Of a stretch of DNA of 20,971 bases, positions 82 through 20,895 are shown in pieces. The DNA comes from an uncultured Lachnospiraceae bacterium (GTDB lineage: Bacteria > Bacillota_A > Clostridia > Lachnospirales > Lachnospiraceae). Each line of letters starts with the position of its first letter. Within the stretch, counting starts at the first letter, position 1. The notes under the pieces were generated by a model that worked only from the letters and a program-made list of their open reading frames with translations, had not been told where the DNA came from and did not search any database. A program made the position numbers and the translations under genes. The stretch is taken from the NCBI GenBank assembly GCA_902773195.1, contig CACYDL010000050.1, positions 1-20,971 on the forward strand, given 5' to 3'.

Positions 82-90
82 GAATTCAAG

Positions 91-114
91 GGATGTGGAA
101 CGCGTTCCACATCC
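91..114. promoter_or_regulatory. Perfect 24-bp palindromic operator (site 1)
   Basis: The half-site GGATGTGGAACG is followed at once by its exact reverse complement, so all 24 bp are symmetric. It sits at about +3 to +26 of the predicted transcript, a classic repressor position. The central step is GC, not the CG step usual in LacI/CcpA operators, so the regulator family is uncertain. No matching regulator gene lies downstream in this operon; it may lie just left of the window. Confidence 0.75.
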
Positions 115-164
115 GCAATTCCCATTCAGAACACGCCAGGTTCTGATTTTTCTTTACAGCCGTA

Positions 165-178
165 TGGAACGGGTTCCA
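165..178. promoter_or_regulatory. Second operator with the same TGGAAC half-site (site 2)
   Basis: The sequence TGGAACGGGTTCCA has 6-bp inverted arms identical to the core of site 1 and a GG centre. The two centres are 69 bp apart, which would allow looping by a tetrameric repressor. The site ends just before the Shine-Dalgarno sequence of the binding-protein gene. Confidence 0.65.
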
Positions 179-199
179 CAAACAAAAAAGGAGAAAGCT

Positions 200-1498: not shown

Positions 1499-1534
1499 TC
1501 ACAGACAGAAGCACTGTATCACGAAAGATATTGT

Positions 1535-1566
1535 ACGGGCATCGGCAGCGAGGTGCCGATGCCCGT
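1535..1566 (+). promoter_or_regulatory. Intercistronic hairpin between binding protein and permease
   Basis: A perfect 13-bp stem (left arm ACGGGCATCGGCA, 1535-1547; right arm 1554-1566) encloses a 6-nt loop and is followed by TCTTTCT. Such stem-loops after the first gene of sugar ABC operons commonly stabilise the binding-protein mRNA or partly terminate transcription, so that the receptor outnumbers the permeases. That role is inferred here. Confidence 0.75.
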
Positions 1567-1648
1567 TCTTTCTATCAGTGGGAGCATCCATGCGGCGGCA
1601 GAAGATTCTGTCCGGAGTGCCGTCGGGCAGTCTTGAAAGGAAGAAGAT

Positions 1649-2530: not shown

Positions 2531-3357
2531 CGGCAAAGGGAAAAAGAAGAGTATACGGATTTCTGATCATTCTCGTGACGGTGCTGGTCGTCTTCCCGTT
2601 TGCCTGGATGCTGATGCTTTCCTTCAAGACAAACGCGGAGATCATGAACAATCCGCTGGCGCTGCCGACGGCCTTCAACCTGGAGAACTACCGGCACGCG
2701 CTGGCCACCCTGGATTATCTCACGCTTTACCGGAACACGGCCGTCGTGTGCGTCCTCGCCCTCGCGCTGGAGCTGGTGTGTACGTTCCTGAGCTCCTTTG
2801 TCCTGGCGAGAATGCATTTCGTGCACCGCGCCGTCCCGGACATGCTGTTCCGCTACCTGATCCTCGGGCTTTCGATCTCGCCCTTCATCCTCCTCTTTCC
2901 GGTGTACCGGGTGGACATCTTCTTCGGGATCCGCGGAAAGTGGGCGCTGGTCTTCGCCTACGCGGCTTCGTCCGTGTCGTTCAACACGCTGCTTCTCGTC
3001 AACTACCTGAAGCAGCTCCCGGTGGAGATCGACGAGGCGGCGGTTCTGGACGGGTGCAGCGTGTGGCAGCTGATCCTCCGCGTGATCCTTCCGATGTCGA
3101 AGCCCGTGATCGCGACGGTGGTCATTTTCAATGTGCTTTATATCTGGAACGAATTCCCCTACGCCTCCGTCATGCTGCGGAACGTCGCGGACTACACGCT
3201 GTCCATGGGGGCCTCGTTCTTCAAGGGAACCTACACCGTCGACTACGGCGGAATCGTTGCCTCCAGCGTCATGATCATCATTCCCGAGCTGATCTTCTAC
3301 GGATTCTTCCAGAAGAACATCGTCGAGGGCATGACCGCGGGAGCAGTAAAAGGCTGA
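2527..3357 (+). CDS. Sugar ABC transporter permease, MalG-like
   Basis: This 276-residue protein is the second permease subunit. It starts with a short basic N-terminus (KGKRR), then a first membrane helix at about residues 9-30. The EAA loop reads DEAAVLDGCSVWQLILRVILP with its glutamate at E170. The C-terminal region (FFQKNIVEGMTAGAVKG) is the conserved tail of MalG-type permeases. It overlaps the upstream permease by 4 bp. No nucleotide-binding subunit follows, so the importer probably uses a shared MsmK/UgpC-type ATPase encoded elsewhere, as is common in Firmicutes CUT1 systems. Confidence 0.93.
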   Translation: MTAKGKRRVYGFLIILVTVLVVFPFAWMLMLSFKTNAEIMNNPLALPTAFNLENYRHALATLDYLTLYRNTAVVCVLALALELVCTFLSSFVLARMHFVHRAVPDMLFRYLILGLSISPFILLFPVYRVDIFFGIRGKWALVFAYAASSVSFNTLLLVNYLKQLPVEIDEAAVLDGCSVWQLILRVILPMSKPVIATVVIFNVLYIWNEFPYASVMLRNVADYTLSMGASFFKGTYTVDYGGIVASSVMIIIPELIFYGFFQKNIVEGMTAGAVKG

Positions 3358-3384
3358 TCAATTTATCTGACAGGAGAGAATAGT

Positions 3385-4728
3385 ATGAGTGGAGTATCCG
3401 GAATCTTTAAGGACCTGACAAAACTGAAGGAAGCCAGAAACGGCAGACTGGCAAGCTGGGATCAGAGGGGAAAGAACCAGGATTACTGGGAGATCCCCGC
3501 ACAGGAGACGATCGTGCTCGGGGAGGTGGAAGGCCCCGGCTGCATCACCCACATCTGGATGACGTCCTCCTGCAGAAAGGTGAAGGCGCCGAGCATTCTC
3601 GATCCCGTGCTGAACGCCTCCGCGGCGCCGGTGATGGAGATCCACCCGGCCCTCGGCGTGATCTGGGACGACTACGATCCTTTCTACTACAGAAAGGTGC
3701 TGATCCGGATCACCTGGGACGATCAGGACACGCCGAGCGTCCTGGCGCCCTTCGGCGATTTCTTCTGCATCGGGAACTGCTATCCCGGCAATTTCTCGTC
3801 CCTTCCCTTCAACGTCTCGCTGAAGCCGGAGGAGGCGGGGAGATACGGCGCCCCCTGCTCCGTGTCCTGCTACTTCCCGATGCCCTTCAACAAGAAGGCC
3901 AAAATCGAGATCGTGAACGAAAACGAGCTTCCGTTCATCCTGTACTTCAACATCGACTACGAGATGTACCGGGAGCCGCTGGATGAGAACACCGCCTACT
4001 TCCACGCCAGCTGGAGGCGGGAGAATCCGTGCAAGGGCTGGGGGCCGGACCTTCAGACCAACTGCCCGGAGGTCAACAACGTCACCAACCTGAAGGGCGA
4101 GAACAACTACACCGTCCTGGACGTGAAGGGCAGCGGCCACTACGTGGGCTGCAATCTGACCGTGAAGCACTACCAGGGCAGCTGGTGGGGCGAAGGAAAC
4201 GACATGTTCTTCATCGACGGGGAGGAGTATCCCAGTCTCAACGGCACCGGCACGGAGGACTACTTCAATCACGCCTGGGGCATGCAGAGGAATTCCTATC
4301 CCTTCTTCGGGACCATCGTCCACGAGGGGGACACCGACGGCTTCCAGGTTTCCTACCGCTTCCACATCACGGACCCGGTGCGCTTTGAGAAGAGTCTGAG
4401 GGTGACCATCGAGCACGGCCACGCCAACCATCTCTCCGACGACTGGAGCTCCACCGCCTACTGGTATCAGACGCTTCCGACGGCGGAGCCCCTGACGATC
4501 CTGCCGGTCGAAGAGCGCCTGCCCAACGTGCCGGCCCTTCCGGAGCGGAAGCTGGAGCTTCCCGAACTTACGGACGAGATGAAGGCCGCGAGGGAATCCT
4601 GGGCGAAGCGCTGGGAGGAGTACCGTCCGGCGAGAGAGGAGCAGTTCAGGATCAAGGAAGACAAGTGCAGGAGAGAGTCAGCCCTGAACACGGAATTCGC
4701 GAAAAAACTGAGGGACGAGTACAGATAA
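3385..4728 (+). CDS. GH172 (DUF2961) glycoside hydrolase, likely alpha-fructofuranosidase / difructose-anhydride enzyme
   Basis: This 447-residue protein matches the DUF2961 family, now GH172. Characterised members act on alpha-D-fructofuranosides and difructose dianhydride I, or on related alpha-linked furanosides such as arabinofuranosides. Recognisable elements are EGPGCITHIWMTS near the N-terminus, a WGEGNDMFFIDGEE segment and the GTGTEDYFNHAWG motif. From memory, the catalytic glutamates of the Bifidobacterium dentium enzyme are E270 and E291; this protein has Glu at exactly 270 (WWGEGN) and 291 (GTGTED). There is no signal peptide, so it acts in the cytoplasm on imported sugar. A good ribosome site (ACAGGAGAG) precedes the start. 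It lies 12 bp before the GH32 gene. The substrate is inferred from family and neighbours. Confidence 0.88.
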   Translation: MSGVSGIFKDLTKLKEARNGRLASWDQRGKNQDYWEIPAQETIVLGEVEGPGCITHIWMTSSCRKVKAPSILDPVLNASAAPVMEIHPALGVIWDDYDPFYYRKVLIRITWDDQDTPSVLAPFGDFFCIGNCYPGNFSSLPFNVSLKPEEAGRYGAPCSVSCYFPMPFNKKAKIEIVNENELPFILYFNIDYEMYREPLDENTAYFHASWRRENPCKGWGPDLQTNCPEVNNVTNLKGENNYTVLDVKGSGHYVGCNLTVKHYQGSWWGEGNDMFFIDGEEYPSLNGTGTEDYFNHAWGMQRNSYPFFGTIVHEGDTDGFQVSYRFHITDPVRFEKSLRVTIEHGHANHLSDDWSSTAYWYQTLPTAEPLTILPVEERLPNVPALPERKLELPELTDEMKAARESWAKRWEEYRPAREEQFRIKEDKCRRESALNTEFAKKLRDEYR

Positions 4729-4740
4729 CGGAGACGCGGT

Positions 4741-6225
4741 ATGTCAAAAGAAACCATGCTTCACAACATTGAGCGGGCCGGGAAGGCGATCGAAGCGAAC
4801 AGGGAGGCTGTCAGCAGAGGCAGCATGCGCCAGCATTACCACTTTATGGGGCAGGCCGGCTGGATCAACGACCCCAACGGGCTGATCTGGTACAAGGGAA
4901 AGTACCATTTCTTCTATCAGCACAATCCCTACTACGGATTCTGGGATTACATGCACTGGGGACACGCGGTGAGCGAGGACCTGGTCCACTGGGAGTACCT
5001 TCCGATCGCCCTCGCCCCCAGCGAAATCTACGACGACCACATGCGGGGAGGCTGCTTCTCCGGCAGTGCCATTGAGTACGACGGAAAGCTGTTCCTGATG
5101 TACACCGGCGTTACCAACGAGGGCCGGGATTTCGACCAGACCCAGTGCGTCGCCTGGAGCGAGGACGGGATCCATTTTGAGAAATACGAGGGGAATCCGG
5201 TTCTCCGCGCCCCGGAGGGGATCCCCACCCGTTTCTTCCGGGATCCGAAGGTGTGGGAGCACGAGGGCACCTTCTACATGGTGTGCGGCGCGAGCAGGAA
5301 CGGCCGCGCCCAGGCCATGCTCTACCGCTCCCCGGATATGCTCCACTGGGAATTCTTCAACGTGCTGGCGGAGAGCCGCGGGGAGTGGGGCATGATGTGG
5401 GAGTGCCCGGATTTCTTCCGGCTGGGCGACCGGTACGTCCTGATGGTCTCCCCCATGGGAGCCGGGGAGCGCACCACGGTCTACTTCACGGGCGATTTTG
5501 ACTATGAGACGGGAAAATTCGACAGCAGGACGAACGGCGAGATCGACTGGGGCTATGATTTCTACGCCCCTCAGTCATTCCTTGCGCCGGACGGCCGGCG
5601 GCTGATCGTCGCCTGGGCGAACTGCTGGGACTGGATGCCCTTCTGGAAGGACTGGGGTCCGACCTACAAGGAGGGGTGGTGCGGCGCCTTCAATATTCCC
5701 CGGGAGGTCCGCCTGATGGACGACGGATCGCTGCAGTTTATCCCCGTGAAGGAGCTGGAGGCCATCCGCGCGGACGGGAGAACGTCCGGCCCGCTCACCG
5801 TGGGCAGGGAGGCCTGCGAGGTGCAGGCGGGGGACGGCGTGTCCTTCGAGTGGAAGCTCACGCTGGATCTGGAGAAGACGGACGCGGAGGAGTTTGTGAT
5901 CGAGCTGCGCTGCGGGGAAGGCCGGAAGGCCGTCTGCCGGTTTGACTTCGCCCGGGCGGAGATGTCGCTGGACCGCCGTCAGGCCGACGGATGGAGCGAG
6001 GGAATGAGCCGGAGCCCGCTGACGCTGAAGGGCAAAAAAGAGCTGCTGATCCACATTTTCTCGGATCAGAGCTCCCTCGAGATCTTCGCGGACGACTACC
6101 GGAACAACCACTCGATGAATGTGTTCGCGGGAAGCGGCCAGAACGGGATACGCATGTTTTCGCGGGGCGGAAGCACGGCGGTCACCGGTATGGAATCCTA
6201 TCGGATGGAGGAATGCTTCCGCTGA
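4741..6225 (+). CDS. GH32 beta-fructofuranosidase (sucrase / exo-fructanase type)
   Basis: This 494-residue enzyme hydrolyses terminal beta-fructofuranosyl bonds with retention. All three GH32 signatures are present: WINDPNG with nucleophile D44, FRDPKV with transition-state stabiliser D168, and WECPDF with acid/base E221. The five-bladed propeller region (about 30-340) is followed by a beta-sandwich domain carrying the typical SLEIFADD motif. There is no signal peptide, so it is intracellular. It is the last gene of the operon, 12 bp after GH172, and is followed by a strong terminator. The pairing suggests it removes the beta-linked fructose left after GH172 opens a mixed-linkage dianhydride, or that the two enzymes serve different fructan substrates. 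Whether it prefers phosphorylated sucrose cannot be decided from sequence; no PTS gene is nearby. Confidence 0.95.
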   Translation: MSKETMLHNIERAGKAIEANREAVSRGSMRQHYHFMGQAGWINDPNGLIWYKGKYHFFYQHNPYYGFWDYMHWGHAVSEDLVHWEYLPIALAPSEIYDDHMRGGCFSGSAIEYDGKLFLMYTGVTNEGRDFDQTQCVAWSEDGIHFEKYEGNPVLRAPEGIPTRFFRDPKVWEHEGTFYMVCGASRNGRAQAMLYRSPDMLHWEFFNVLAESRGEWGMMWECPDFFRLGDRYVLMVSPMGAGERTTVYFTGDFDYETGKFDSRTNGEIDWGYDFYAPQSFLAPDGRRLIVAWANCWDWMPFWKDWGPTYKEGWCGAFNIPREVRLMDDGSLQFIPVKELEAIRADGRTSGPLTVGREACEVQAGDGVSFEWKLTLDLEKTDAEEFVIELRCGEGRKAVCRFDFARAEMSLDRRQADGWSEGMSRSPLTLKGKKELLIHIFSDQSSLEIFADDYRNNHSMNVFAGSGQNGIRMFSRGGSTAVTGMESYRMEECFR

Positions 6226-10788: not shown

Positions 10789-10893
10789 GCCGCCCGCGGA
10801 TCAGCAGGAGCGCCCCGGCCCCGCGGACGGGCCGGCATAGAGATGTATCACATGCCGGAGAAGGATCCGGCCAGAACGGGAGGGACGACGGTT

Positions 10894-11670
10894 TTGAACG
10901 TACTGCAGAATCTGATCGAGCTGTACAATACTCTTCCGGCGGACAGCACCTACCGGGGCGTCGCCCGGGGGATCCTCACGCATCTTGACGAGATGCAGGA
11001 CGTCACGATCTACGACATCGCGGAGATCACCAGCTCCTCGCGCACCACGGTGTGGCGCATGGTGCAGAAGATGGGCTACAGCAGCTTCTCAAATTTCCGT
11101 TATGCCCTGCAGGCCGCCGTGACGCAGTACAACTACTACAACCGGATTCTGCCGGCGGAAGCGCTGAAGAGCGAGGAGAAGATTCTCGAGACGGCGGAGG
11201 CCCAGCTCTCCCTCGCCGCGGAGAATCTGAAGGCCCATGTGACGCCGGAGCTTCTCGGCGGGCTGGCCTCCGCGCTGGGGGACGCCGGCCGGGTGGATTT
11301 CTACATGCCCTTCCGCCTCTCCGGCATCTCGTCCCTCCAGCAGAACCTGGCGATGGACGGCAAGGAGACCGGTTGGTTCGCGCTGTACCCGGAGATGCTG
11401 GCGGCCTCGGAGACCGCCGGGCCGGACTGCGTGGCGATGATCTCCACCATCGAGTTCGCGGAGACGCTGAACATGACGGAGGTCTTCAAAAACCTTCGCA
11501 AAAACGGCGCTGCCGTCTGGCTCGCCGGGAGCAGCCGGACCCGCTACCGGAAGTACGCGGACCGGGTCATCCTCGACTCGGAGGACATGCCTCTGTGCTG
11601 GCTTACGATGATGGAAGGCTTCCTGATCGCCCTCAGCGAGGAGTACAGGGCCCTCCATCTGGAATACTGA
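10894..11670 (+). CDS. RpiR/MurR family transcriptional regulator
   Basis: This protein of about 258 residues carries an N-terminal RpiR-type helix-turn-helix (VTIYDIAEITSSSRTTVWRMVQKMGYSSFSNFRYAL) and a C-terminal SIS-like sugar-phosphate sensing region from about residue 110. The TTG start at 10894 is chosen because GGGAGGG (10878-10884) lies 9 nt before it, and RpiR proteins usually begin just ahead of an LQNLI-like helix. An in-frame ATG at 10843 would add 17 residues but has no ribosome site. The SIS region is poorly conserved by eye: no clear glycine-rich G-x-G-x-S loop is visible. It immediately precedes the sugar-catabolism cluster and is the obvious candidate to control it, perhaps through the palindromes at 11855-11870 or 11906-11920. 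Confidence 0.85.
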   Translation: MNVLQNLIELYNTLPADSTYRGVARGILTHLDEMQDVTIYDIAEITSSSRTTVWRMVQKMGYSSFSNFRYALQAAVTQYNYYNRILPAEALKSEEKILETAEAQLSLAAENLKAHVTPELLGGLASALGDAGRVDFYMPFRLSGISSLQQNLAMDGKETGWFALYPEMLAASETAGPDCVAMISTIEFAETLNMTEVFKNLRKNGAAVWLAGSSRTRYRKYADRVILDSEDMPLCWLTMMEGFLIALSEEYRALHLEY

Positions 11671-12053: not shown

Positions 12054-12830
12054 ATGCAGTACAGCCTTTGTGCGGATATCATGTTTGTCGGCGTAGGAGA
12101 GAAGGGCCCGGTGTGGCCGGATACGGACGGGATCGTCAAGGCGATGGAGTTCGCGAAGGAAAACGGCCTGACCGGAATCGAGATGTTCAGCCTCGAGGGA
12201 AGAGATCTGGAAACGCTCGCCGCGAAGAGCCGTGAGCTCGGCATCGAGATCCGCGCCTGCGTCTCCGGCGGAGCGACCTGGCTCGGAGATCCGGCGAAGA
12301 CGGAAGAGCTGGCCGCGGCGTTCGCCGAGAGCGTCCCGAAGGCGAAGTCCATCGGCTGCCGCAAGCTGATCTTCAACGCGGACCAGTACGCGAAGGATCT
12401 CTCCGCGGACGAAGTGCTCGACGTGATGGAGGAGCAGCTCAGAAAGATCGCCCCGATCGCCGAGAAGGAAGACGTCCTCGTCATCGTGGAGCCGCTGACC
12501 GGCGGGTTCTTCACCTCCGCGGAACAGGCCTTCGGACTGATCCGCCGCGTCGGAAGCAGCAACGTGAAGCTGCTGTATGACATCTTCCACTTCCAGAACA
12601 TCTGCGGCGGCATCACGGAAACCATCAAAAACAACCTGGACCTGATCGGCGACCTCCACGGAGCGGGATCCCCGATGAGAGGCGAGCTGACCGTGGGCGA
12701 GCTGAACTACAGCTACATCCTGAACACGGTGAAGGAGCTCGGCTACGAAGGCAACTTCTGTCTGGAGTTCTTCACCTTCCAGAACAGGGAAGAGAAAGTG
12801 GCCGCCTCCTGCACGGTCCTGCCGCAGTAA
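12054..12830 (+). CDS. TIM-barrel sugar isomerase/epimerase, hydroxypyruvate-isomerase-like
   Basis: This 258-residue protein belongs to the xylose-isomerase-like TIM-barrel (AP endonuclease 2) superfamily, which isomerises, epimerises or dehydrates sugars and keto-sugars with a divalent metal. Candidate metal ligands are all present: E146 (VIVEPL), D176 and H179 (LLYDIFHF), H202 (GDLHGAG) and E238 (CLEFF). The layout resembles hydroxypyruvate isomerase. The start at 12054 follows AGGAAGAGGAGG; a longer frame from 11904 would add 50 basic, low-complexity residues and is rejected. It is the first gene after the regulated promoter at 11848-11876 and precedes the Gfo/Idh/MocA gene, with no terminator seen between them. 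The specific substrate is unknown. Confidence 0.88.
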   Translation: MQYSLCADIMFVGVGEKGPVWPDTDGIVKAMEFAKENGLTGIEMFSLEGRDLETLAAKSRELGIEIRACVSGGATWLGDPAKTEELAAAFAESVPKAKSIGCRKLIFNADQYAKDLSADEVLDVMEEQLRKIAPIAEKEDVLVIVEPLTGGFFTSAEQAFGLIRRVGSSNVKLLYDIFHFQNICGGITETIKNNLDLIGDLHGAGSPMRGELTVGELNYSYILNTVKELGYEGNFCLEFFTFQNREEKVAASCTVLPQ

Positions 12831-12893
12831 AAACGGCGGAGGAACGGCAGGTCCGCCGAAGGGAACGGGAAACGCACCGAATCAAAAGAGCGC

Positions 12894-12920
12894 GGAAACA
12901 GAAGCGAGGAAACAGAAGCG
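12894..12920 (+). repeat. Short direct repeat in a purine-rich spacer
   Basis: GGAAACAGAAGCG occurs at 12894-12906 and 12908-12920. The surrounding 206-bp gap (12831-13036) is strongly purine-rich on the plus strand and shows no gene, hairpin or promoter; it ends with the TACAGGAGG ribosome site of the next gene. Confidence 0.7.
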
Positions 12921-13036
12921 CGGAATGAAAAAGTACGGGATCAAAAACGTACGGATAAAAGAAACGCCAGGATAAAGAAACAGGAAAGAACCAGGAACAC
13001 AAAACGCAGAAGATCACATTTACAGGAGGAAAAATC

Positions 13037-14104
13037 ATGTCGAAAATCAGAGTCGCCATCATCGGAGTCGGAGAAATCGGAACAACGAAGCATCTGGAGC
13101 AGCTGACGAAGCATCCGGACGAGGTCGAGATCGTCGCCCTCTGCGACATCATCCCCGAGAGATGCGAGAAGGCCAACGAGAAGTTCGGTCTCAGCGCGGC
13201 CGTCTACACGGACTACAAGGAGATGCTGAAGGACGAGACCATCGACGCCGTCCACGTCTGCACGCCGAACCCGCTTCACTGCGAGATGACCATCGCGGCC
13301 TTTGAGAGCGGCAAGCATGTCTACTGCGAGAAGCCCATCGCCTGCAACTATGAGGATGCGAAGAAGATGCTCGCGGCCCGTGACAAGGCAGGACGCCAGC
13401 TCGCCTCCGGCACGCAGTGGCGCTACAACACCGCTCCGATGGAGATGAAGAGAATGTACGACGCCGGCGAATTCGGCGACGTGTACTACATCCGCTCCTC
13501 CCAGCTCCGCCCGAGACGTCTTCCGGCCTACGGCGTCTACACCAGCAAGGAACTGAACGGCGGCGGCGTCCTCATGGACGGAGGCCCCCACTCCATCGAC
13601 CTTCCGATGTGGCTGACCGGCAACTATGACGTGGCCACGGTCCGCGGCGTCACCTTTGACAAGATGAAGAATTTCCCGGAGGGCAACGACCTCGGTCCGT
13701 GGGATCCGGACAACTTCGACGTCGAGGATACCGCCTACGCGATGATCACCATGAAGAACGGCGCGATGTTCTATGTGGAGACCGCCTGGTGCTCCAACAT
13801 GCTGCAGGAGGCCCCCGGCATCATCTGCTCCGTCGCGGGAACCCTCGCCGGCGCCGACATGGTGGGCCCGGGCTTTGAGAACTGCGTCCGCGTGACAAAG
13901 ATGGTCGACGGAAAGCTCACCACGGAGACGGTGGATCCCGAGGCCAAGTACAACATGTGGGCTTATGACATGGACAAGTGGATCGAGGCCGTCGCGACGG
14001 GCAGCGAACCGGCGGTGACCGGCGAGCAGGCGGCAGTGGTTACGCGCGTCATCGAAGCCATCTACAAGTCCGCCGAGACGGGCGAGACGGTCGTGTTCGA
14101 CTGA
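13037..14104 (+). CDS. Gfo/Idh/MocA family NAD(P)-dependent oxidoreductase
   Basis: This 355-residue dehydrogenase has an N-terminal Rossmann domain (VAIIGVGEIG dinucleotide loop) and a C-terminal alpha/beta substrate domain. The family oxidises a ring hydroxyl of sugars or inositols to a ketone, or the reverse. The catalytic lysine is K99 in YCEKPIA, and the second motif MDGGPHSID supplies D181, H185 and D188. A TACAGGAGG ribosome site precedes the start. It follows the isomerase gene without a visible terminator and is itself followed by a strong one, making a two-gene operon. It probably produces the keto-sugar or keto-polyol used by the TIM-barrel proteins. Position oxidised and substrate cannot be read. 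Confidence 0.93.
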   Translation: MSKIRVAIIGVGEIGTTKHLEQLTKHPDEVEIVALCDIIPERCEKANEKFGLSAAVYTDYKEMLKDETIDAVHVCTPNPLHCEMTIAAFESGKHVYCEKPIACNYEDAKKMLAARDKAGRQLASGTQWRYNTAPMEMKRMYDAGEFGDVYYIRSSQLRPRRLPAYGVYTSKELNGGGVLMDGGPHSIDLPMWLTGNYDVATVRGVTFDKMKNFPEGNDLGPWDPDNFDVEDTAYAMITMKNGAMFYVETAWCSNMLQEAPGIICSVAGTLAGADMVGPGFENCVRVTKMVDGKLTTETVDPEAKYNMWAYDMDKWIEAVATGSEPAVTGEQAAVVTRVIEAIYKSAETGETVVFD

Positions 14105-14145
14105 TCCCCCAAGACCCGTAAAAAAGAAGAGAGAAAACAGCGATC

Positions 14146-14188
14146 AGGAGAGTCGGAAACAGCCGGCTCTCCTTTCTTGTCTTTCCCT
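14146..14188 (+). terminator. Rho-independent terminator after the dehydrogenase gene
   Basis: An 11-bp stem with one G:T pair (AGGAGAGTCGG, 14146-14156; CCGGCTCTCCT, 14163-14173), loop AAACAG, is followed by TTCTTGTCTTTCC. It lies 42 bp past the stop and splits the cluster into two transcripts. Confidence 0.85.
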
Positions 14189-14208
14189 GAAAAAACGGGG
14201 TCCGGACC

Positions 14209-14233
14209 ACTTTTTATAAAACTTATAAAAAGT
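14209..14233. promoter_or_regulatory. Perfect 11-bp inverted repeat upstream of the second promoter
   Basis: Arms ACTTTTTATAA (14209-14219) and TTATAAAAAGT (14223-14233) are exact inverse copies around AAC. The site ends 13 bp before the -35 hexamer, the usual place for an activator or an UP-like element. No T-run follows, and a proper terminator lies just upstream, so an operator is the better reading. Confidence 0.65.
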
Positions 14234-14246
14234 TATTAAAAATTAG

Positions 14247-14275
14247 TTGACAGGCCTTCTCCGGGCGGTTATATT
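14247..14275 (+). promoter_or_regulatory. Promoter of the second catabolic operon
   Basis: TTGACA (14247-14252), a 17-bp spacer and TATATT (14270-14275) form a strong housekeeping-type promoter, preceded by AT-rich DNA. The start codon of the first gene is about 33 nt downstream of the expected transcription start. Confidence 0.85.
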
Positions 14276-14314
14276 GGAATTAACAACGAAGACATGGAAA
14301 GGTAGGTAACTGGT

Positions 14315-15304
14315 ATGAAGGCTGTAGGAAGCTTTGGCATCGTCAACGCCGACACGAGCGGTCCCGGCGCTTTCCTGAGAGCGGCGAAGTGGTACTGGGA
14401 TGAAGTCACGGACATGTTCGCGGCGGCAGGATTTACGTCCATTATGATTCCGATGGTTCCCAATACGGAGAACGTATCCCGCAACGGCGCGCCCATCTGC
14501 ACGGCGTCGATCCGCACGAGATTCGGCTCTCCTGCCGGGTACAGGAAGTACCTCAACGAGAAGGGCATCGACAACGTGGAGGTCATCGGCATCTCCGCCC
14601 AGGCGCAGTTCAACAGCCTCTTCGAGACGGGCCTTCCCATGGAGAAGTTCTTCGACGCGTTCTACGAGCACGCCGTCGACTGCGCGGACGCACTGACGGA
14701 GCTTGGCGGCAGCACGCTCCTGATCTCCCCGACGCCGGGCGTCGGCTTCCTGGAGCAGGTGTTCGAGGGCGACGAAGCGAAGACCGCCGCCTTCCTTGAG
14801 GACGCGGCCGCCTGCATGAACAGGATCGGCGCCGCCTGCAAAGAGAAGGGGATCAACGCGGTGATCCGCAACGAGTACTGGACGCTGATGCGCGGCGCGG
14901 CCGTCGACGCCTTCCTGGAGAAGCTCGACGCGGACGTCGTCACCTACGCCCCGGATCCGGCCCATCTCGTCATCGCCGGAGCCGATTACGCCGCTTACTA
15001 TGAGAAGTACGCGAAGCAGGCGAAGGCGGTCTGCTTCACCGATACGAAATTCGTGGATGAGCTGGACGTCTACAAGACCATCTCTCCCGAATTCCCGCAG
15101 GACGGCAGGCTCCAGAGAGTCTACTACGACCTGGGCTTCGGCGGCATCGACTTCGACCGTCTCTACAGGATCCTGAAGGACAGCGATTTCGACGGACCGG
15201 TGATCCTGGATTCGAAGTACTCGCTGGATATCCCGAAGGGCATCCTCAGAATGCGCACGTTCTGGAACAGGCTGGAAAAGAATTACGCGGCGGAGGTGAA
15301 ATGA
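14315..15304 (+). CDS. Divergent TIM-barrel sugar isomerase-like protein (altered metal site)
   Basis: This 329-residue protein is an apparent paralogue of the next gene: both have an N-E-[YF]-W motif and a similar layout. Two candidate ligands are kept, E187 (IRNEYW) and D214/H217 (YAPDPAHL). At the third site, where the neighbour has FHLKDT, this protein reads FTDTKF (T242, D243), and at the fourth ILDSKY (D299) replaces IESDG. It may therefore use a changed metal site, or act as a partner subunit without its own activity. A GGTAGG-type ribosome site lies ahead of the start. It overlaps the next gene by 4 bp, implying equal production. No gene symbol can be assigned. Confidence 0.82.
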   Translation: MKAVGSFGIVNADTSGPGAFLRAAKWYWDEVTDMFAAAGFTSIMIPMVPNTENVSRNGAPICTASIRTRFGSPAGYRKYLNEKGIDNVEVIGISAQAQFNSLFETGLPMEKFFDAFYEHAVDCADALTELGGSTLLISPTPGVGFLEQVFEGDEAKTAAFLEDAAACMNRIGAACKEKGINAVIRNEYWTLMRGAAVDAFLEKLDADVVTYAPDPAHLVIAGADYAAYYEKYAKQAKAVCFTDTKFVDELDVYKTISPEFPQDGRLQRVYYDLGFGGIDFDRLYRILKDSDFDGPVILDSKYSLDIPKGILRMRTFWNRLEKNYAAEVK

Positions 15305-16239
15305 TGGAGAAGAGAAATATCAATTACACCTACATGACCAACCTGTGGGGCAACATCAATTACAAGCAGATCAACAACTTCGACGAGTGGTACATGGGTG
15401 ATTTCGGTTCCGCCTACTACTACCAGGACTGGGACAAGATCCTCCGCTACTTCGCCGGGGCCGGCTTCAAGGGAATCGAGATCATGGTCTTCTCGGTTCC
15501 GAGCATCCGGAACGCCTTCGGCTCCATGAAGAATTTCAAGGAATTCGCCCAGGAGCGGGGCATCGAGCGCATCACCGGCATGTTCTCCCATCACGTCGGA
15601 TCCCAGGACAAGAGAAATCATCCCGCGATCTTTGCCTATGAGCAGCAGGCGATCGACGCCCTGGCGGAGTGCGACGGCATCAACCTCATCGTCCAGCCGG
15701 CGGGACAGTACTACGGCACCGGCCCCCTCGACGAGGAAGGACTGAAGAACGTCGCCGAGTGCATGAACACGGTCGGACGCATGTGCGCCGAGAAGGGCCT
15801 CGCGGTCTCCATTCACAACGAGTTCTGGTGCGCGGTCAACAAGTACGATCACGAGAAGTTCCTCGAGATGACGGATCCGCGGTACGTCTTCTACTGCCTC
15901 GACACCGCCCAGGTCTCGATCATGGGCAAGGACATCTGCAAGTTCTATGACGATTATCACGACAGGGTCCAGTACTTCCACCTGAAGGACACGACCTACA
16001 TCAACGCCCCGGACGAAAAGAGATTCGGACCCGGCGCCGAATTCGACGAGCACGGCGCCCGCTGGTTCTGGGAGCCGGGCGGAGGACTTCTGGATTTCAA
16101 GGGACTGCTTGCCCTGATGAAGAAGCATCAGCACAAGGGATGGGTCGGCATCGAATCCGACGGGACGCCGGATCCGCTTTCCACGATCCTTCTGACCAAG
16201 AACTACATCGACACCGTCCTGGACCCGATCTACAGATAA
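15301..16239 (+). CDS. TIM-barrel sugar isomerase/dehydratase-like protein (intact metal site)
   Basis: This 312-residue protein of the xylose-isomerase-like superfamily keeps all four expected metal ligands: E174 (IHNEFW), D201 (CLDTAQ), H227 (YFHLKDT) and E285 (GIESDG). Relatives include inosose dehydratase (IolE), sugar epimerases and the enzymes that cleave 3-keto-glycosides by elimination. Its start overlaps the stop of the divergent paralogue (ATGATG against TGA), suggesting a two-subunit enzyme. The N-terminal stretch NINYTYMTNLWGNINYKQIN is unusually long before the first barrel strand. It is followed by a 97-bp spacer and the VOC gene. The substrate is unknown; a keto-sugar from the dehydrogenase is inferred. 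Confidence 0.88.
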   Translation: MMEKRNINYTYMTNLWGNINYKQINNFDEWYMGDFGSAYYYQDWDKILRYFAGAGFKGIEIMVFSVPSIRNAFGSMKNFKEFAQERGIERITGMFSHHVGSQDKRNHPAIFAYEQQAIDALAECDGINLIVQPAGQYYGTGPLDEEGLKNVAECMNTVGRMCAEKGLAVSIHNEFWCAVNKYDHEKFLEMTDPRYVFYCLDTAQVSIMGKDICKFYDDYHDRVQYFHLKDTTYINAPDEKRFGPGAEFDEHGARWFWEPGGGLLDFKGLLALMKKHQHKGWVGIESDGTPDPLSTILLTKNYIDTVLDPIYR

Positions 16240-16336
16240 GCCGCACGTCCGGCCGGGACGGCGCGGAGCCGGTTCAGAATCAATAACGTTCATAATCAAC
16301 AAAATTCATAATACAAATTAACGGAGGGGACATATC

Positions 16337-16831
16337 ATGATGGACACACAGTTCGCAAAGTTTTTACAGATCGGCATCATCGTTGAGAACGTCGAGGAGA
16401 CAATCAAGAACTATGAGAAGTACGGAATCGGCCCGTGGAGAGTCAGCCCGCTGGATTCCGCCGAGTTCCCGGATTTCACGATGAACGGAACGCGCGACCG
16501 TCTTCAGACGATCATGGCCTTCTGCGACTGCTGGGGATTTGAGATCGAGCTCATCCAGCCGATCAGCGAAAGCCCCTACAAGACCTGGCTCGACGAGCAC
16601 GGCCCGGGCATGCACCACATCGCGCTGATCACGAGAGACAGCTTCGACAAGGTCATCGAGGAGCACAAGGTCAACACCGGAAGAGATCCGTGGCTGTGGT
16701 GCAAGGATCCGGTCATCGGCATGGAGTTCGCCTATCTGGATCTCCACAAGGAACTGGGACTTTTCCTGGAGGTCTACAACGAGGAGAAGCACGGCGGACT
16801 TCCCGCAAACTTCAAGCTTCCGGAAGAATAA
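16337..16831 (+). CDS. VOC-superfamily metalloprotein (glyoxalase / methylmalonyl-CoA epimerase-like)
   Basis: This 164-residue protein has two beta-alpha-beta-beta-beta modules typical of the vicinal oxygen chelate superfamily. Likely metal ligands are Q11 (FLQIGIIV, where many relatives have His), E71 (FEIELIQP), H94 (PGMHHIAL) and E145 (FLEVYNE). Module layout and the GPGMHHIALIT motif recall methylmalonyl-CoA epimerase, but the role could be epimerase, isomerase, lyase or dioxygenase. AACGGAGGGG is a strong ribosome site; the gene starts with two Met codons, so the start may be 3 bp later. It lies between the TIM-barrel pair and the aldo/keto reductase in one direction. A metal-stabilised enolate step on a keto intermediate is a reasonable inference. 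Confidence 0.87.
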   Translation: MMDTQFAKFLQIGIIVENVEETIKNYEKYGIGPWRVSPLDSAEFPDFTMNGTRDRLQTIMAFCDCWGFEIELIQPISESPYKTWLDEHGPGMHHIALITRDSFDKVIEEHKVNTGRDPWLWCKDPVIGMEFAYLDLHKELGLFLEVYNEEKHGGLPANFKLPEE

Positions 16832-16851
16832 TTTACGGCAGGAAAAACGAT

Positions 16852-16902
16852 CCGGGGCGGAGCGGCCTCCGAGGAAATGCGGAGCGGGCCGTCCCGCCCC
16901 GG
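16852..16902 (+). promoter_or_regulatory. GC-rich intercistronic hairpin between VOC and AKR genes
   Basis: CCGGGGCGG (16852-16860) pairs exactly with CCGCCCCGG (16894-16902); inside it CGGCC pairs with GGCCG and TCCG with CGGA around an AGGAAATG loop, with small bulges. No T-run follows, so RNA stability or partial attenuation is more likely than full termination. Confidence 0.6.
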
Positions 16903-16942
16903 GCCACAGAACGCAAAAGGTCATATAAGGGAGGAAACGGAT

Positions 16943-17908
16943 ATGGAATACACGACATTCAAGGGCATTGACAAGAAAATCAGCAAGTTCTTCATGGGAA
17001 CCTTCGGCATGTTCCCGGACAACATGGAGAAGCACTTCACGACGCTGGACGCCGCCTTCGATCTGGGCATCAACTGCATCGACACCGCCCGCGCCTATGA
17101 TTCCGAGCCGACCGTCGGGGCGTGGATCGAGAGCCGCGGCAACCGCGAGGACATCGTTCTTCTTTCCAAGGGCGCTCATCCGAAGGACGATGTGCAGCGC
17201 GTGACCCCGGAGGACATGGATTATGACATGAACCTCACGCTGGAGGCCCTGAAGACGGACTACCTCGACATCTATCTGCTTCACAGGGACAACACCGATC
17301 TGCCGGTCGGCCCCATCGTCGAGAAGCTCAACGAGTTCAAGGCCGACGGAAAGGTCAGGATCTTCGGCGGATCCAACTGGACGCATCAGCGCCTGGAGGA
17401 GGCCAACGAGTACGCCTACGCCCACAACCTCGAGCCGATGTCCGTCTCTTCCCCGAACTTCAGCCTCGCGGAGCAGGTCAAGAATCCCTTCGCCCCCGGC
17501 TGCGTGACCATCGCCGGCAACAAGAACGCCGACGCCCAGGCGTGGTACATCAACAACCAGATGCCGGTCCTGGCCTACTCCTCCCTCGCCAGAGGCTTGT
17601 TCTCCGGCCGCATCACCAGGGAGCTTCTCGCCAATGATCCGGAGAAGATCGATATGTTCTGCCGCATCGGCTACTGCTATGAAGAGAACTTCGTCCGTCT
17701 TGACCGCTGCGCGGAAATCGCGGCCGAGAAGGGCTGCACGATCCCGCAGGTCGCCATGGCCTACGTCCTTGACAGCCCGCTGAACGCTTTCCCGATCATC
17801 GGCGCGGCGAACCGCTCCGAGATCGAGTCCTCCATCGGCGCCCTGAACGTGAAACTTACGCCCCAGGAAGTCCTTTATCTTGAGCTGAAGTCCGATTCAA
17901 GGGTATAA
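16943..17908 (+). CDS. Aldo/keto reductase
   Basis: This 321-residue NAD(P)H-dependent oxidoreductase has the AKR catalytic tetrad: D47 and Y52 (IDTARAYD), K76 (LLSKG) and H114 (YLLHRD). The cofactor region near the C-terminus (FPIIGAANRSEIESS) is also present. These enzymes reduce aldehydes or ketones, including keto-sugars. The start at 16943 follows AAGGGAGGAAACGG; a longer frame beginning at 16877 runs through the intercistronic hairpin and is rejected. In this cluster it may restore a keto group after elimination or reduce the released product. A possible internal promoter for the next gene overlaps its last codons. Confidence 0.93.
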   Translation: MEYTTFKGIDKKISKFFMGTFGMFPDNMEKHFTTLDAAFDLGINCIDTARAYDSEPTVGAWIESRGNREDIVLLSKGAHPKDDVQRVTPEDMDYDMNLTLEALKTDYLDIYLLHRDNTDLPVGPIVEKLNEFKADGKVRIFGGSNWTHQRLEEANEYAYAHNLEPMSVSSPNFSLAEQVKNPFAPGCVTIAGNKNADAQAWYINNQMPVLAYSSLARGLFSGRITRELLANDPEKIDMFCRIGYCYEENFVRLDRCAEIAAEKGCTIPQVAMAYVLDSPLNAFPIIGAANRSEIESSIGALNVKLTPQEVLYLELKSDSRV

Positions 17909-17909
17909 T
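17880..17909 (+). promoter_or_regulatory. Possible promoter for the ROK-type regulator
   Basis: TTGAGC (17880-17885), an 18-bp spacer and a perfect TATAAT (17904-17909) overlap the stop codon of the aldo/keto reductase. It could let the regulator and the thiolase genes be expressed separately. Confidence 0.45.
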
Positions 17910-17963
17910 CATACAGAGAAACAATAACGCAGGAGCAAAGCAGACGGGAACGGCAGGAAAAGC

Positions 17964-19154
17964 ATGAAAGCAGCCAATACAATGGAGGTTCGACAGCAGA
18001 ACGCTCTGTATATCATGAGGGATATCGAGTGCTTCCCCGGGATCACGATCGCCGAGATCGCGAAGAACAGGGAGGTGAGCGTCGCCACGGTCTCCAATAT
18101 TGTAAATCTGCTGAAAGCAGGAGGATTTATCACGGCGGCCGGCGCCGCCGTCTCCTCCGGCGGCCGGCGGCCGGTGCAGCTGTCGGTCAGCGCGGACTAT
18201 CAGAAATACCTCGGCGTCAGCGTCGCCGGGCACACGGTGTACCTGGTGCTGACGGACTTCGCCGGCACCATCCTGAAGAAAGAGAGATTCTATCGGGAAT
18301 ACGCCGGCACGAGGGAGTACTGGAGCGGCGTCGCGGCTCTTGCGGAGGAGTTCTGCGGAGAGGCGTACGCGTCCTGCCTCACCGGCATCGCGCTGCCGGG
18401 TTTCGTCGATGAGGAGCGCGGCATCGTGACCGGCACGGAGACGCTGGGCGTGCCGGTGGTCCTCCTGGAAGACGTCCGCGCGGCGTTCGGGGAGGACGTC
18501 TCGGTCGGAGACGCGGGAATGCTCGCCGGTCTCGCCCAGACCTTCGGTAAGGCGGATTATCCCGACAGCTTTTTCATTCTTCTCAGCCGGCGCATCAGCG
18601 GGTTTCCGATCCGCAGCGACGAGCTCATCCGGACCGGCGGCTCGGGCGTCGACGTCGGCGCCATGATCCTGGATCCCCGGGGGACGACGCGCGATTACGG
18701 GATTCCCGGGAGCTTCCTCGAGCTGTGCTCCGCCAGCCGGATCATCGATCTGATGAAGAGACGCGGAGCGGCCGAGGCCGGCTACGAAGCCTTTTTCAGG
18801 GACATCGCCGGGGGGAACGAGGAGTATCGCGCCCTCTGGGACGAATATCTCGGATATCTTGCCCTCGCGCTTTGCAATCTCAGGGCCGCCTACGGCATCG
18901 GCCTTGTGATCGGCGGCGAGATGGCAGGCTATATAAGTGAATACGCGGAGGAACTGGAGAAAAAAGCCGCCGCCTTCGCCCCGGCGCACGGGCGGAATGT
19001 TTCCGTCTCGTTCAGCTCCTGGGGGGAGTACGACGACGCCTGCGGGGCCGCGCTGGCGGCCAGGCACGAACACGTAACCGGATTGATTCCGACTCTCATG
19101 AAAGGCGCGCCGCCCCACACCGTCCGCGGAAGGAAACGGCGCAGCGCTTCGTGA
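17964..19154 (+). CDS. ROK-family-like transcriptional regulator with degenerate sugar-kinase domain
   Basis: This 396-residue protein has an N-terminal winged helix (residues about 10-70, ITIAEIAKNREVSVATVSNIVNLLKAGGFI) followed by a SSGGRRP linker, both typical of NagC/XylR-type ROK regulators. The rest follows the ROK length and plan, but the signature sites are lost. The ATP loop expected as DxGGT reads GVSVAGHTVYLVLTDFAG, and no zinc-binding C-x-C-G-x-x-G-C stretch is visible. It is therefore a sensor or DNA-binding protein, not a kinase. The C-terminus ends in a basic tail (RGRKRRSAS). GGCAGGAAAAGC precedes the start. Being inside the cluster, between reductase and thiolase, it probably responds to a pathway metabolite. 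Confidence 0.85.
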   Translation: MKAANTMEVRQQNALYIMRDIECFPGITIAEIAKNREVSVATVSNIVNLLKAGGFITAAGAAVSSGGRRPVQLSVSADYQKYLGVSVAGHTVYLVLTDFAGTILKKERFYREYAGTREYWSGVAALAEEFCGEAYASCLTGIALPGFVDEERGIVTGTETLGVPVVLLEDVRAAFGEDVSVGDAGMLAGLAQTFGKADYPDSFFILLSRRISGFPIRSDELIRTGGSGVDVGAMILDPRGTTRDYGIPGSFLELCSASRIIDLMKRRGAAEAGYEAFFRDIAGGNEEYRALWDEYLGYLALALCNLRAAYGIGLVIGGEMAGYISEYAEELEKKAAAFAPAHGRNVSVSFSSWGEYDDACGAALAARHEHVTGLIPTLMKGAPPHTVRGRKRRSAS

Positions 19155-19180
19155 GATACTGACCGAAAAGGAGAACCGAT

Positions 19181-20464
19181 ATGGTCGAGGGAAAACTGGG
19201 GAACTACAAAAGAAGTGTATCGATTATCGGCGTCGGTGCAACGCCGTTCTGCGATATCACTGAGATTCCGGAGTACGAGGGGCTCACGGAAGGGGAATTT
19301 TTCGGGCATGCCGCACTGATGGCCATGGAGGACGCCGGCCTTGAGCCGAGAGACGTCGACTATTTCTATCACGGCTCCGCGAATCCTAAATTCTTCAACA
19401 ACGCCGCCACGCCGAACATGCAGGTCGCCGAGTGGTTCGGTATGAGAGGCAAGGGTTCCATTCACCATTCCGAGGCATGCTGCTCGGGCTATGTCGGCCT
19501 GGAGGAGGCGGTGATGGACGTCGCCAGCGGCGCCCATGACATCGTGCTCAGCGGCTGCGTGGAGATGGCCTGCGGTCTTCCCGTTCCCGGAAAGCCGGCC
19601 CACATCAGAAGACAGATCACCACCGACGACGTCATCCCGGATATCGAAGCCATCATGGACCGCGCCTACACGAGGGCCCTCGGCGGCGGACATATCGGCC
19701 AGGACGACTGGATCGACCTCTACAGGAAAGAGAACGGTCTGACCGACGAGCAGATCGACCTGATTCTCAACACCATGTCCTACAACGGCAGAAGAGCGGC
19801 CGCGCTCAATCCGCTGGCCATGCTCCGCACTCCCTTCGAGGAGCTGGCGAAGGAGGCCGGTTACGACGACGTGATGGAGTATCTCGCCTCCCCTTACAAC
19901 CCGAAGACGACCATGTATCTCCGCAACACGGGGAACGCCCCCAGCGCGGACGGCGCGGCCTGCTGCATCGTGTGTCCCACGGAGATGGCCGGACAGTTCC
20001 GTCAGAAGCCGGTGGAGGTCCTCGGGATCGGCGCCTCCTGCCTCGAGCTGATGCGTCCGCACAACGAGAAGGAGATCACGAAGGAGGCGGCCAGACAGGT
20101 CTACGCCGCGACGGGACTTACCCCGGACGACATCGATCTGCTGCTCGTAAACGACTTCGTCCTTCCCTCCCAGCTGCTGGCGGCCGAGGAGGTCGGCTAC
20201 CTGCCGAAGGGCGAGGGCTGGAAATGGGTTCTTGAGGGCAGAACCGCCTTCGACGGCGACCGCCCCATCAATCCTCACGGCGGCCGCACTTCCTACGGAC
20301 ACGCCTACGGTGCCTCCGGCATGGCGGACATCTACGAGGCGGTTCTTCAGCTGAGGGGACAGGCCGGAGCGCATCAGGTAAAGAACAACCCGAAGACAGC
20401 GATGCTCCGCGGATTCGGCGGCGGCCAGAACTGCCGCATACCGATCCTCAGGGTGGTTGAATAA
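19181..20464 (+). CDS. Thiolase-fold acyltransferase/aldolase (SCP2/PhlC-like clade)
   Basis: This 427-residue thiolase-fold protein has a likely nucleophile C100 in SEACCSGYVGL and the C-terminal NPHGGRTSYGHAYGASG motif, where H374 occupies the GHP histidine position. The second catalytic cysteine of classical biosynthetic thiolases (in CxGGG) is replaced: the sequence reads RGFGGGQN with Gly at 411. This pattern and the DUF35 partner immediately downstream place it with thiolases that work with DUF35 proteins (archaeal acetoacetyl-CoA thiolase, PhlC, and Ltp2-type retro-aldolases). It may make or break a carbon-carbon bond with a CoA or non-CoA substrate. It is 26 bp from the ROK regulator stop, with AAAAGGAGAACC as ribosome site, and 14 bp from DUF35. 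Confidence 0.87.
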   Translation: MVEGKLGNYKRSVSIIGVGATPFCDITEIPEYEGLTEGEFFGHAALMAMEDAGLEPRDVDYFYHGSANPKFFNNAATPNMQVAEWFGMRGKGSIHHSEACCSGYVGLEEAVMDVASGAHDIVLSGCVEMACGLPVPGKPAHIRRQITTDDVIPDIEAIMDRAYTRALGGGHIGQDDWIDLYRKENGLTDEQIDLILNTMSYNGRRAAALNPLAMLRTPFEELAKEAGYDDVMEYLASPYNPKTTMYLRNTGNAPSADGAACCIVCPTEMAGQFRQKPVEVLGIGASCLELMRPHNEKEITKEAARQVYAATGLTPDDIDLLLVNDFVLPSQLLAAEEVGYLPKGEGWKWVLEGRTAFDGDRPINPHGGRTSYGHAYGASGMADIYEAVLQLRGQAGAHQVKNNPKTAMLRGFGGGQNCRIPILRVVE

Positions 20465-20478
20465 GGAGGACCGAAGCC

Positions 20479-20895
20479 ATGATGAAGATTGAAAGAGTCG
20501 TCTCCAAATTTTACGAAGGCCTGGCGCAGCACAAGATCTACGGGAGAAAATGCAAGGAATGCGGCTCGATCGAATTCCCGCCCCGCTACGCCTGCAACAC
20601 CTGCGGCTACCACGAGACCGAGTGGGTGGAGCTGTCCGGCCGGGGAATGCTTCACAGCATCATCCTGCCGTCCACGCTGAACGCGGATCCCTGGAACAGC
20701 AAGATCGGCCCCTATTTCTACGGACTCGTCCAGCTGGAGGAGGGCCCGATGTTCAACTGCACGGTCTTCGGACTCAAGAAGAAGCAGGCGAGAATGCTTC
20801 GCGACAAGCTTCCGATCCCCGTCCACGCCATCTTCGCCGAGAGGGACGGATTTACGACGATTTTCTTCGAGGTCGACGAGGTGCCCCAGGCATAA
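20479..20895 (+). CDS. DUF35 zinc-ribbon / OB-fold protein, thiolase partner
   Basis: This 138-residue protein has an N-terminal rubredoxin-like zinc ribbon (C25-x2-C28 ... C39-x2-C42; KCKECGSIEFPPRYACNTCG) followed by an OB-fold from about residue 50 (GMLHSIILPS, YFYGLVQLEEGPMFNCTVFG). DUF35 proteins pair with thiolase-fold enzymes and help bind the acyl or CoA group or bridge active sites. It starts at ATGATG, so the true start may be 3 bp later, behind the AAGGAGGACC ribosome site. It directly follows the thiolase gene by 14 bp. The remaining 76 bp of the window are purine-rich and show no gene; the cluster may continue beyond them. Confidence 0.92.
   Translation: MMKIERVVSKFYEGLAQHKIYGRKCKECGSIEFPPRYACNTCGYHETEWVELSGRGMLHSIILPSTLNADPWNSKIGPYFYGLVQLEEGPMFNCTVFGLKKKQARMLRDKLPIPVHAIFAERDGFTTIFFEVDEVPQA

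Follow-up and report, generated by a model that had tools for sequence, protein, structure and literature searches.

A sugar-oxidation gene block joined to a thiolase-DUF35 pair in Lachnospiraceae: a candidate branch of 3-keto-glycoside breakdown

The gene block and its recurrence in relatives

The window analysed here comprises positions 1-20,971 of contig CACYDL010000050.1 (GenBank assembly GCA_902773195.1) of an uncultured Lachnospiraceae bacterium, and the system in question is a run of sugar-type and thiolase genes at 12054-20895. Eight genes, with a ROK regulator gene between the aldo/keto reductase (AKR) and the thiolase, fill this interval, and all are open and on the + strand. The first two encode TIM1 (12054..12830; PF01261), a sugar isomerase-like protein of the hydroxypyruvate / 2-oxo-tetronate isomerase branch, and GfoA (13037..14104; PF01408/PF02894), a DgpA-type protein and candidate glycoside 3-dehydrogenase. 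Two further barrels follow, TIM2 (14315..15304; PF01261) and TIM3 (15301..16239; PF01261), whose reading frames share 4 bases. TIM3 retains E174, D201, H227-x-K229 and E287 and is the candidate catalytic barrel, a 3-keto-glycoside lyase or isomerase, and TIM2, in which Cys and Asp replace H227 and E287 of TIM3, is probably a non-catalytic partner. Next come an isomerase/epimerase-like VOC metalloenzyme (16337..16831; PF13669), which scores 29 of 115 bits as methylmalonyl-CoA epimerase, the AKR (16937..17908; PF00248), and the ROK-family regulator (17964..19154; PF00480), which has an N-terminal helix-turn-helix (HTH) with MarR-type matches below the cut-offs. The run ends with a thiolase of the DUF35-linked, SCP2/PhlC-like branch (19181..20464; PF22691/PF00108) and its DUF35 Zn-ribbon/OB partner (20479..20895), which has two C-x2-C motifs and scores 33 bits for PF12172 (cut-off 23) and 25 for PF01796 (below the cut-off of 27). 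The mechanically called open reading frames (ORFs) of TIM1 and the AKR start farther upstream (11904 and 16877); the starts at 12054 and 16937 are those that agree with relatives. The window stops 76 bases past DUF35, with no further recognisable gene there.

These genes probably form two co-directional units, TIM1-GfoA (unit A) and TIM2-TIM3-VOC-AKR-ROK-thiolase-DUF35 (unit B), because a terminator-like hairpin 3′ of unit A (14146..14173, +; 11 pairs, then a T-rich tail) and a promoter-like site 5′ of unit B (14247..14275, +; TTGACA-17-TATATT, 11/12) separate GfoA from TIM2. Both are no more than consensus matches, and window shuffling set the 4 promoter-like sites of the window against 2.1 expected and its 7 terminator-like sites against 9.5 expected. 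A single-operon reading was dropped on account of the hairpin and the promoter-like site ahead of TIM2. An initial annotation, made from the window's letters, had described eight genes of these families as one set in one direction; ORFs and Pfam bear out the families, and the shared direction stands, but the single set has probably to be divided in two.

Relatives were collected by scanning genome contigs with 18 thiolases, and counts over 80 refer to the best 80 of 233 confirmed matches (loci numbered L, in genomes numbered G). Their genes were called from open frames and similarity, with no trained gene finder, and three antisense ORF families (f3, f9, f16) were set aside by eye as spurious-looking. 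The order TIM2-TIM3-VOC-AKR-thiolase-DUF35 is complete in 7/80 loci (L001, L002, L003, L004, L005, L007, L008) and interrupted by contig ends in three more (L006, L009, L011); these 10/80 window-type loci, L001-L009 and L011, lie in G001-G009 and G011. The recurrence of the TIM2 to DUF35 order confirms that the gene set is real and not a product of chance. ROK stands within the block in four loci (L001-L004). Carriers of the block include Faecalicatena orotica and Catenibacillus scindens, the latter a known C-glycoside degrader with described dgp genes according to the available part of its source (PMC11170127).

A search with TIM3 in 48 genomes taken from the thiolase loci gave matches at E 1e-10 or better in 20, and at an identity of at least 88% in 12. 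The thiolase stands in the same block in nine of these 12, and the contig ends first in the other three (G006, G021, G031). TIM2 is rare: orthologues of 76-78% identity were seen in 2/299 genomes of a sample from the family of C. scindens (the centre genome and one drawn from the thiolase loci), both times inside the block. The conserved-neighbourhood check that the initial annotation had called for therefore finds the thiolase-DUF35 pair together with the sugar genes, and the proposed tie between an oxidative sugar-type cluster and this pair recurs across species.

Directly 3′ of DUF35, five of the loci (L002, L003, L004, L007, L008) carry a further barrel, TIM4, and a second Gfo/Idh gene, Gfo2. 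The TIM4 of C. scindens, the sole one compared, matches the 2-hydroxy-3-keto-glucal hydratase 8ro4 at E 2e-50. In L001, the nearest relative (thiolase 90% identical), the gene after DUF35 is not pathway-like in appearance. For DfgCD of C. scindens (AKC35075/AKC35076), described in the available part of PMC8398226, two identities come into question: TIM4-Gfo2, or else a TIM2/TIM3 pair from the same genome.

A second arrangement is seen in L014, where genes for a major facilitator superfamily transporter, an RpiR regulator, GfoA, TIM1 and a phosphotransferase system EIIC-like protein precede thiolase-DUF35, with no TIM2/TIM3. Its GfoA, three genes ahead of the thiolase, is 87.6% identical to that of the window, and its thiolase 64% identical. 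In the window an RpiR-type gene (10843..11670, +; PF01418) likewise precedes TIM1 and likely encodes the regulator of unit A; RpiR accompanies GfoA and TIM1 in L002, L014 and L121.

A paralogous TIM2′-TIM3′ pair was noted in L101-L110 (TIM3′ 42-49% identical to TIM3), often beside another Gfo/Idh gene, and occurs in 8/12 genomes with window-type TIM3 and in two Oscillospiraceae. A protein that joins an AraC-type HTH to a GH39 domain (L016 5952-8351, family f20), perhaps a sugar-sensing regulator, also recurs near the clusters.

Sugar-side enzymes and the link to C-glycoside deglycosidases

GfoA fits the profile of a DgpA-type glycoside 3-dehydrogenase, which makes this its candidate activity. 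It matches DgpA structures in the PDB at E 1.6e-87 (7xr9, residues 1-349) and E 6.7e-88 (9m3d), as against 1.2e-30 for inositol dehydrogenase, and it misses the NCBIfam cut-offs for the inositol 2-dehydrogenase IolG (131.2 of 355 bits) and for levoglucosan dehydrogenase (103.8 of 650 bits). The barrels are more distant from described enzymes. TIM1 reaches at best 96.7 of 465 bits in NCBIfam and 77 of 325 as OxoTetrIsom, with 3ngf and 1k77 YgbM as PDB matches. TIM3 matches 3cny at E 1.2e-13 and, weakly, the hydratase 8ro4 at E 6.7e-5, and the IolE cut-off of 290 bits is missed by both TIM3 (73) and TIM2 (32). Neither TIM2 nor TIM3 passes as a DgpC-type alpha subunit: their PDB matches, none better than E 1.2e-13, are IolE, epimerases and further barrels of isomerase-like type. 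The DgpC of F. orotica, in contrast, reaches deglycosidase alpha subunits of solved structure at E values between 1.7e-72 and 1.8e-31.

On these comparisons of sequence the setting is 3-keto-glycoside cleavage rather than inositol catabolism. The initial annotation had offered both leads, and the C-glycoside lead has proved the better one. Catabolism of inositol or another cyclic polyol, in which a cyclic dione would be opened by thiolysis, would accord with the distant likeness of TIM3 to IolE and of GfoA to IolG. With both scores far below the cut-offs, a DgpA-like GfoA, and no IolB-, IolC- or IolD-like protein in a Pfam scan of 19 window proteins, we rejected this reading and regard it as very improbable.

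The tie to C-glycoside deglycosidases extends beyond the window. In the sample of 299 family genomes a clear thiolase (at least 45% identity) is present in nine, excluding G081 with its single match of 33%, and the deglycosidase beta subunit CGDB (PF19906) in 25. CGDB occurs in 7/9 thiolase-positive genomes and in 18/290 others (Fisher p 3.9e-7, or 3.7e-6 without the centre genome and 3.4e-5 without both genomes drawn from thiolase loci), although related genomes are non-independent samples and their kinship makes these p values too good. Counting DgpC-like matches in place of CGDB gives a similar outcome (7/9 vs 17/290). CGDB-like genes also lie within 7/80 thiolase loci, where 1.4 would be expected at the rate of the thiolase-positive genomes (p 7e-4). 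On contig C7 of F. orotica a stretch of about 45 kb brings together two types of thiolase, GfoA, a homologue of DgpA, CGDB and DgpC, with CGDB (PF19906) carried by locus L117. In G001 and G021, homologues of DgpA (44-45% identical) stand at most 2 kb from thiolases of more distant kinship, and in G122 a DgpA homologue is separated from a thiolase by about 5 kb. Together, this indicates a real and recurrent link between a predicted 3-keto-glycoside gene set and the thiolase clade of the window, which is of an acyl carrier protein (ACP)-associated type.

Two side observations concern F. orotica. The C7 region at about 64-142 kb (L002, L047, L116, L117, L118) is rich in glycoside-breakdown genes and also holds the paralogous barrel pair, transporters and AraC-GH39 proteins. 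Between two of its thiolase loci are two ORFs with near-identical starts (L047 13870-14781 and 15141-16064), perhaps a duplication.

Known systems of this kind oxidise the glycoside at C3, eliminate the aglycone, hydrate the resulting 2-hydroxy-3-keto-glucal and reduce 3-keto-glucose, as described in the available parts of PMC10628242 and PMC8563793. The window resembles the dgpABC/dfgABCDE systems of strain PUE, Eubacterium cellulosolvens and Catenibacillus in its DgpA-type Gfo/Idh protein and in a xylose-isomerase-like barrel with the metal-site pattern, and CGDB and DgpC genes are present on the block-bearing contig of F. orotica. It differs from them in having the TIM2/TIM3 pair instead of barrel plus beta subunit, no CGDB (PF19906) being found among the 19 window proteins scanned, and it additionally has thiolase-DUF35, VOC and AKR. 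With the Agrobacterium GlycDH-AtOGE-AtHYD system and the levoglucosan operons it would share the scheme of oxidation, elimination and hydration, the candidate for the last being the TIM4 gene 3′ of DUF35 in five relatives; in the available part of the source the known scheme finishes with conversion of 3-keto-glucose to glucose, and the thiolase is an addition here (PMC10628242).

It could be that the window encodes just such a four-step pathway, with thiolase-DUF35 as an unrelated neighbour engaged in, for example, acetoacetyl-CoA chemistry. The PUE, Agrobacterium and levoglucosan operons follow the four-step scheme in an account whose available part lacks the word thiolase (PMC10628242), Gfo2 beside TIM4 in five relatives could perform the reduction, and butyrate producers have other uses for thiolases. 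Against it, the thiolase shares the block in 9/12 genomes with a window-type TIM3, the remaining three contigs ending before it, the second arrangement links it to GfoA, and it co-occurs with CGDB genome-wide. We hold this explanation to be unlikely.

The thiolase and its carrier-protein company

The window thiolase retains its nucleophilic Cys and catalytic His: C100 and H374 are invariant across 18 sequences and line up with Cys and GH in 7yvy. A structure model (mean predicted local distance difference test score 75) is informative for the fold only. In the thiolase tree the window clade comprises 10 rows (support 100/100) within a 14-row set (97/89), of which six rows have an ACP, six do not and two are at contig edges, so placing the window thiolase, by sequence, within an ACP-bearing clade.

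The short gene near most thiolases of this clade encodes an ACP, and both examples tested pass PF00550. An ACP-like gene is present in 61/80 loci, counting a remnant in C. scindens; by tree rows, an ACP lies within 2.6 kb for 62/80, with 13 lacking one and five at contig edges. Genes for a phosphotransacylase (PTA) occur in 37/80 loci, for a butyrate kinase (BUK) in 32/80 and for an Sfp-type phosphopantetheinyl transferase (PPTase) in 16/80, in a set with many short contigs. One BUK representative scores above the butyrate-kinase cut-off, and the PTA representative passes PF01515 but lies below the NCBIfam cut-offs. Fifteen further loci from the family sample have, anywhere in the stretch, ACP in 13, PTA in 12, once as a weak match, and BUK in nine. 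DUF35 and ACP are fused in five ORFs (L191, L192, L194, L197, L080), with tandem ACPs in L192 and L194. The ACP serine is kept in 81/82 rows, the exception being C. scindens, where a shortened ACP remnant without the serine region lies 3′ of DUF35 (L003 11711-11854).

In the clade of the window itself the neighbouring ACP is mostly gone. A second thiolase, 63-64% identical, is present in all of G001-G009 and G011 (as a contig-cut piece in G008), and all 33 tree rows of this second type lie within 2.6 kb of an ACP, so that these genomes likely have one available in trans. By inference, the window thiolase may likewise use an ACP in trans. The initial annotation, whose overall interpretation is supported in part, had missed the ACP, PTA and butyrate-kinase company of the clade as well as the RpiR and ROK regulators.

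Loci of the second type also hold a lactaldehyde-reductase-like iron-dependent alcohol dehydrogenase, a 2-hydroxyacid dehydrogenase and a class II aldolase. The aldolase beside the paralogues scores 126 and 121 bits as ribulose-1-P and fuculose-1-P aldolase vs 105 as OtnC, all below cut-off. A tetronate route, with TIM1 as OtnI and this aldolase as OtnC, was suggestive and was set aside with its scores below cut-offs. The thiolase module is also found away from 3-keto-sugar genes, in loci of more distant thiolases, with URO-D-like genes of methyltransferase type (judged by eye) in L191, L192 and L196 and NuoG-like genes in L191 and L192, and it may thus act on further substrates.

The kinase and phosphotransacylase could also run the other way, activating an acid to acyl-ACP so that the thiolase would C-acylate a sugar- or aglycone-derived nucleophile, as multi-component acyltransferases do. 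The surrounding transporters, sugar-type regulators and deglycosidases suggest catabolism instead, and no HMG-CoA-synthase-like third subunit of the PhlA type is found among the 19 window proteins scanned; a biosynthetic role seems quite improbable.

The thiolase might instead act on the aglycone, cleaving a phloroglucinol-type, ring-derived beta-diketone, with the sugar genes adjoining since glycosides deliver the aglycone. In the available part of PMC6392133, PhlC works on acylphloroglucinols and forms acetyl-Cys88 from monoacetylphloroglucinol, a free aryl ketone, without coenzyme A (CoA). C. scindens degrades flavonoid aglycones according to the available part of PMC11170127, and old yellow enzyme (OYE), flavoprotein or URO-D-like genes are present in some thiolase loci. 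The recurrent neighbours are, however, barrels, a Gfo dehydrogenase and an AKR, and phloroglucinol reductase or cyclohydrolase genes were not noted beside the window-type block, where no search by name was made. We consider cleavage of the aglycone unlikely, if still deserving of some weight.

A possible pathway and the points for and against it

We propose that the window encodes a branch of the 3-keto-glycoside pathway that ends in C-C bond cleavage by the thiolase, a reading to which we give a probability of roughly 0.45. What the sequences show directly is the identity of the genes, their recurrent order, the tie to C-glycoside deglycosidases, the ACP coupling of the clade, fusions included, and the preserved thiolase residues; the direction, the substrate, the bond and what the barrels, AKR and VOC do are inferred. 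By its kinship with DgpA, GfoA would oxidise a glucoside at C3, and TIM3, with TIM2 as partner, would eliminate the aglycone or isomerise the product. Hydration by a TIM4-type hydratase, as seen in relatives, would give 3-keto-glucose, the open-chain form of which is a beta-keto-aldehyde. Cys100 of the thiolase would then attack a carbonyl of this beta-dicarbonyl. The best guess is a cut between C2 and C3, where attack at C3 would yield a C4 aldonyl thioester and release glycolaldehyde. The thiolase is read as cleaving a free beta-dicarbonyl because no CoA ligase is seen among the window proteins scanned, while the paralogues adjoin the thioester-consuming PTA and BUK; PhlC, which forms its acyl-Cys88 from a free ketone with no CoA involved, offers a parallel (PMC6392133).

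The C4 aldonyl group could then be passed to the thiol of a carrier protein or of CoA, with DUF35 assisting, and the PTA and butyrate-kinase homologue encoded beside ACP-bearing paralogues would convert the thioester to acid and ATP. The AKR may reduce the released aldehyde, with VOC and TIM1 as isomerases, and the iron-dependent alcohol dehydrogenase, 2-hydroxyacid dehydrogenase and class II aldolase of the second-type loci could take up cleavage products.

Several points weigh against this proposal. The loci were collected via the thiolase, so its presence is built in and the informative part is the surrounding genes. Two genomes (G201 and G274) have the thiolase without CGDB and the module occurs in other settings; therefore the neighbourhood alone does not fix the substrate class. 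Besides CGDB, a clear 2-hydroxy-3-keto-glucal hydratase was not found among the window genes scanned, nor were ACP, PTA or BUK, and no ACP lies in the 76 bases between DUF35 and the window end. Of the eight window-type loci that reach past DUF35, only L005 has an intact ACP; beyond the L003 remnant, the other six (L001, L002, L004, L006, L007, L008) have none, and it is possible that ACP use has been lost in the window clade. The closest folds to the thiolase include the CoA thiolases BbsB and SCP2, with which CoA use is compatible. In three Oscillospiraceae (TIM3 73-75% identical) TIM2-TIM3 adjoins a convergent butyrate-kinase gene and thiolase-DUF35-ACP lies elsewhere, their thiolases sitting in the 14-row tree set that holds the window clade. 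The proposed scheme does not account for OYE and ThuA, whose genes adjoin paralogues, and the aldolase scores weaken the tetronate route for the products.

More tentatively, the clade as a whole may represent a third kind of carrier-protein-based catabolic C-C cleavage after citrate lyase and malonate decarboxylase. In this system a thiolase-DUF35-ACP assembly with its own PPTase, PTA and butyrate-type kinase would act on free beta-dicarbonyls. Among Lachnospiraceae of the gut its target would be the 3-keto-sugar released from plant glycosides, split into an acyl-thioester and glycolaldehyde, making ATP, with no reduction to glucose. In citrate lyase and malonate decarboxylase the acyl group is carried on a dedicated carrier protein. 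The likeness, one by description, lies in catabolic C-C cleavage with such a carrier; the two known enzymes differ in their chemistry and are not thiolases. The clade is set apart from the DUF35-linked BbsAB, archaeal thiolase/HMGCS, PhlABC, MucABC and the Ltp2-ChsH2 aldolase by its ACP coupling and, often, PTA and BUK genes. We know of no other thiolase that employs a carrier protein in catabolism, as this one would through its ACP coupling, natural DUF35-ACP fusions included. The idea could be tested in the cultivable F. orotica, C. scindens and Extibacter muris.

Plant C- and O-glycosides yield bioactive aglycones when gut bacteria cleave them via 3-keto sugars, and in the schemes described the sugar part ends up reduced to glucose. 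If the proposed thiolase exit is true, the sugar would be split at the keto stage and energy conserved as acyl-phosphate, and an uncharacterised family of thiolases from Firmicutes and Coriobacteria of the gut would gain a role. The literature searched, outside which subscription papers mostly fall, gave no account of a thiolase-DUF35-ACP system or of a thiolase in 3-keto-glycoside breakdown. The word thiolase is absent from the available main text on the dgp genes of C. scindens (PMC11170127), and the available parts of PMC12724307 and PMC8873060 have no bearing on it. Within this material the gene set matches no described inositol or glycoside operon, as the initial annotation had supposed. 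This suggests a new variant in the combination of known parts, and an undescribed route of plant sugar-conjugate breakdown.

Farther upstream, at 80-6225 of the window, is a separate group of genes for an ABC sugar transporter (substrate-binding protein and two permeases), a DUF2961 protein, presumably GH172-like, and a GH32 protein, probably for the use of fructan or fructosides.

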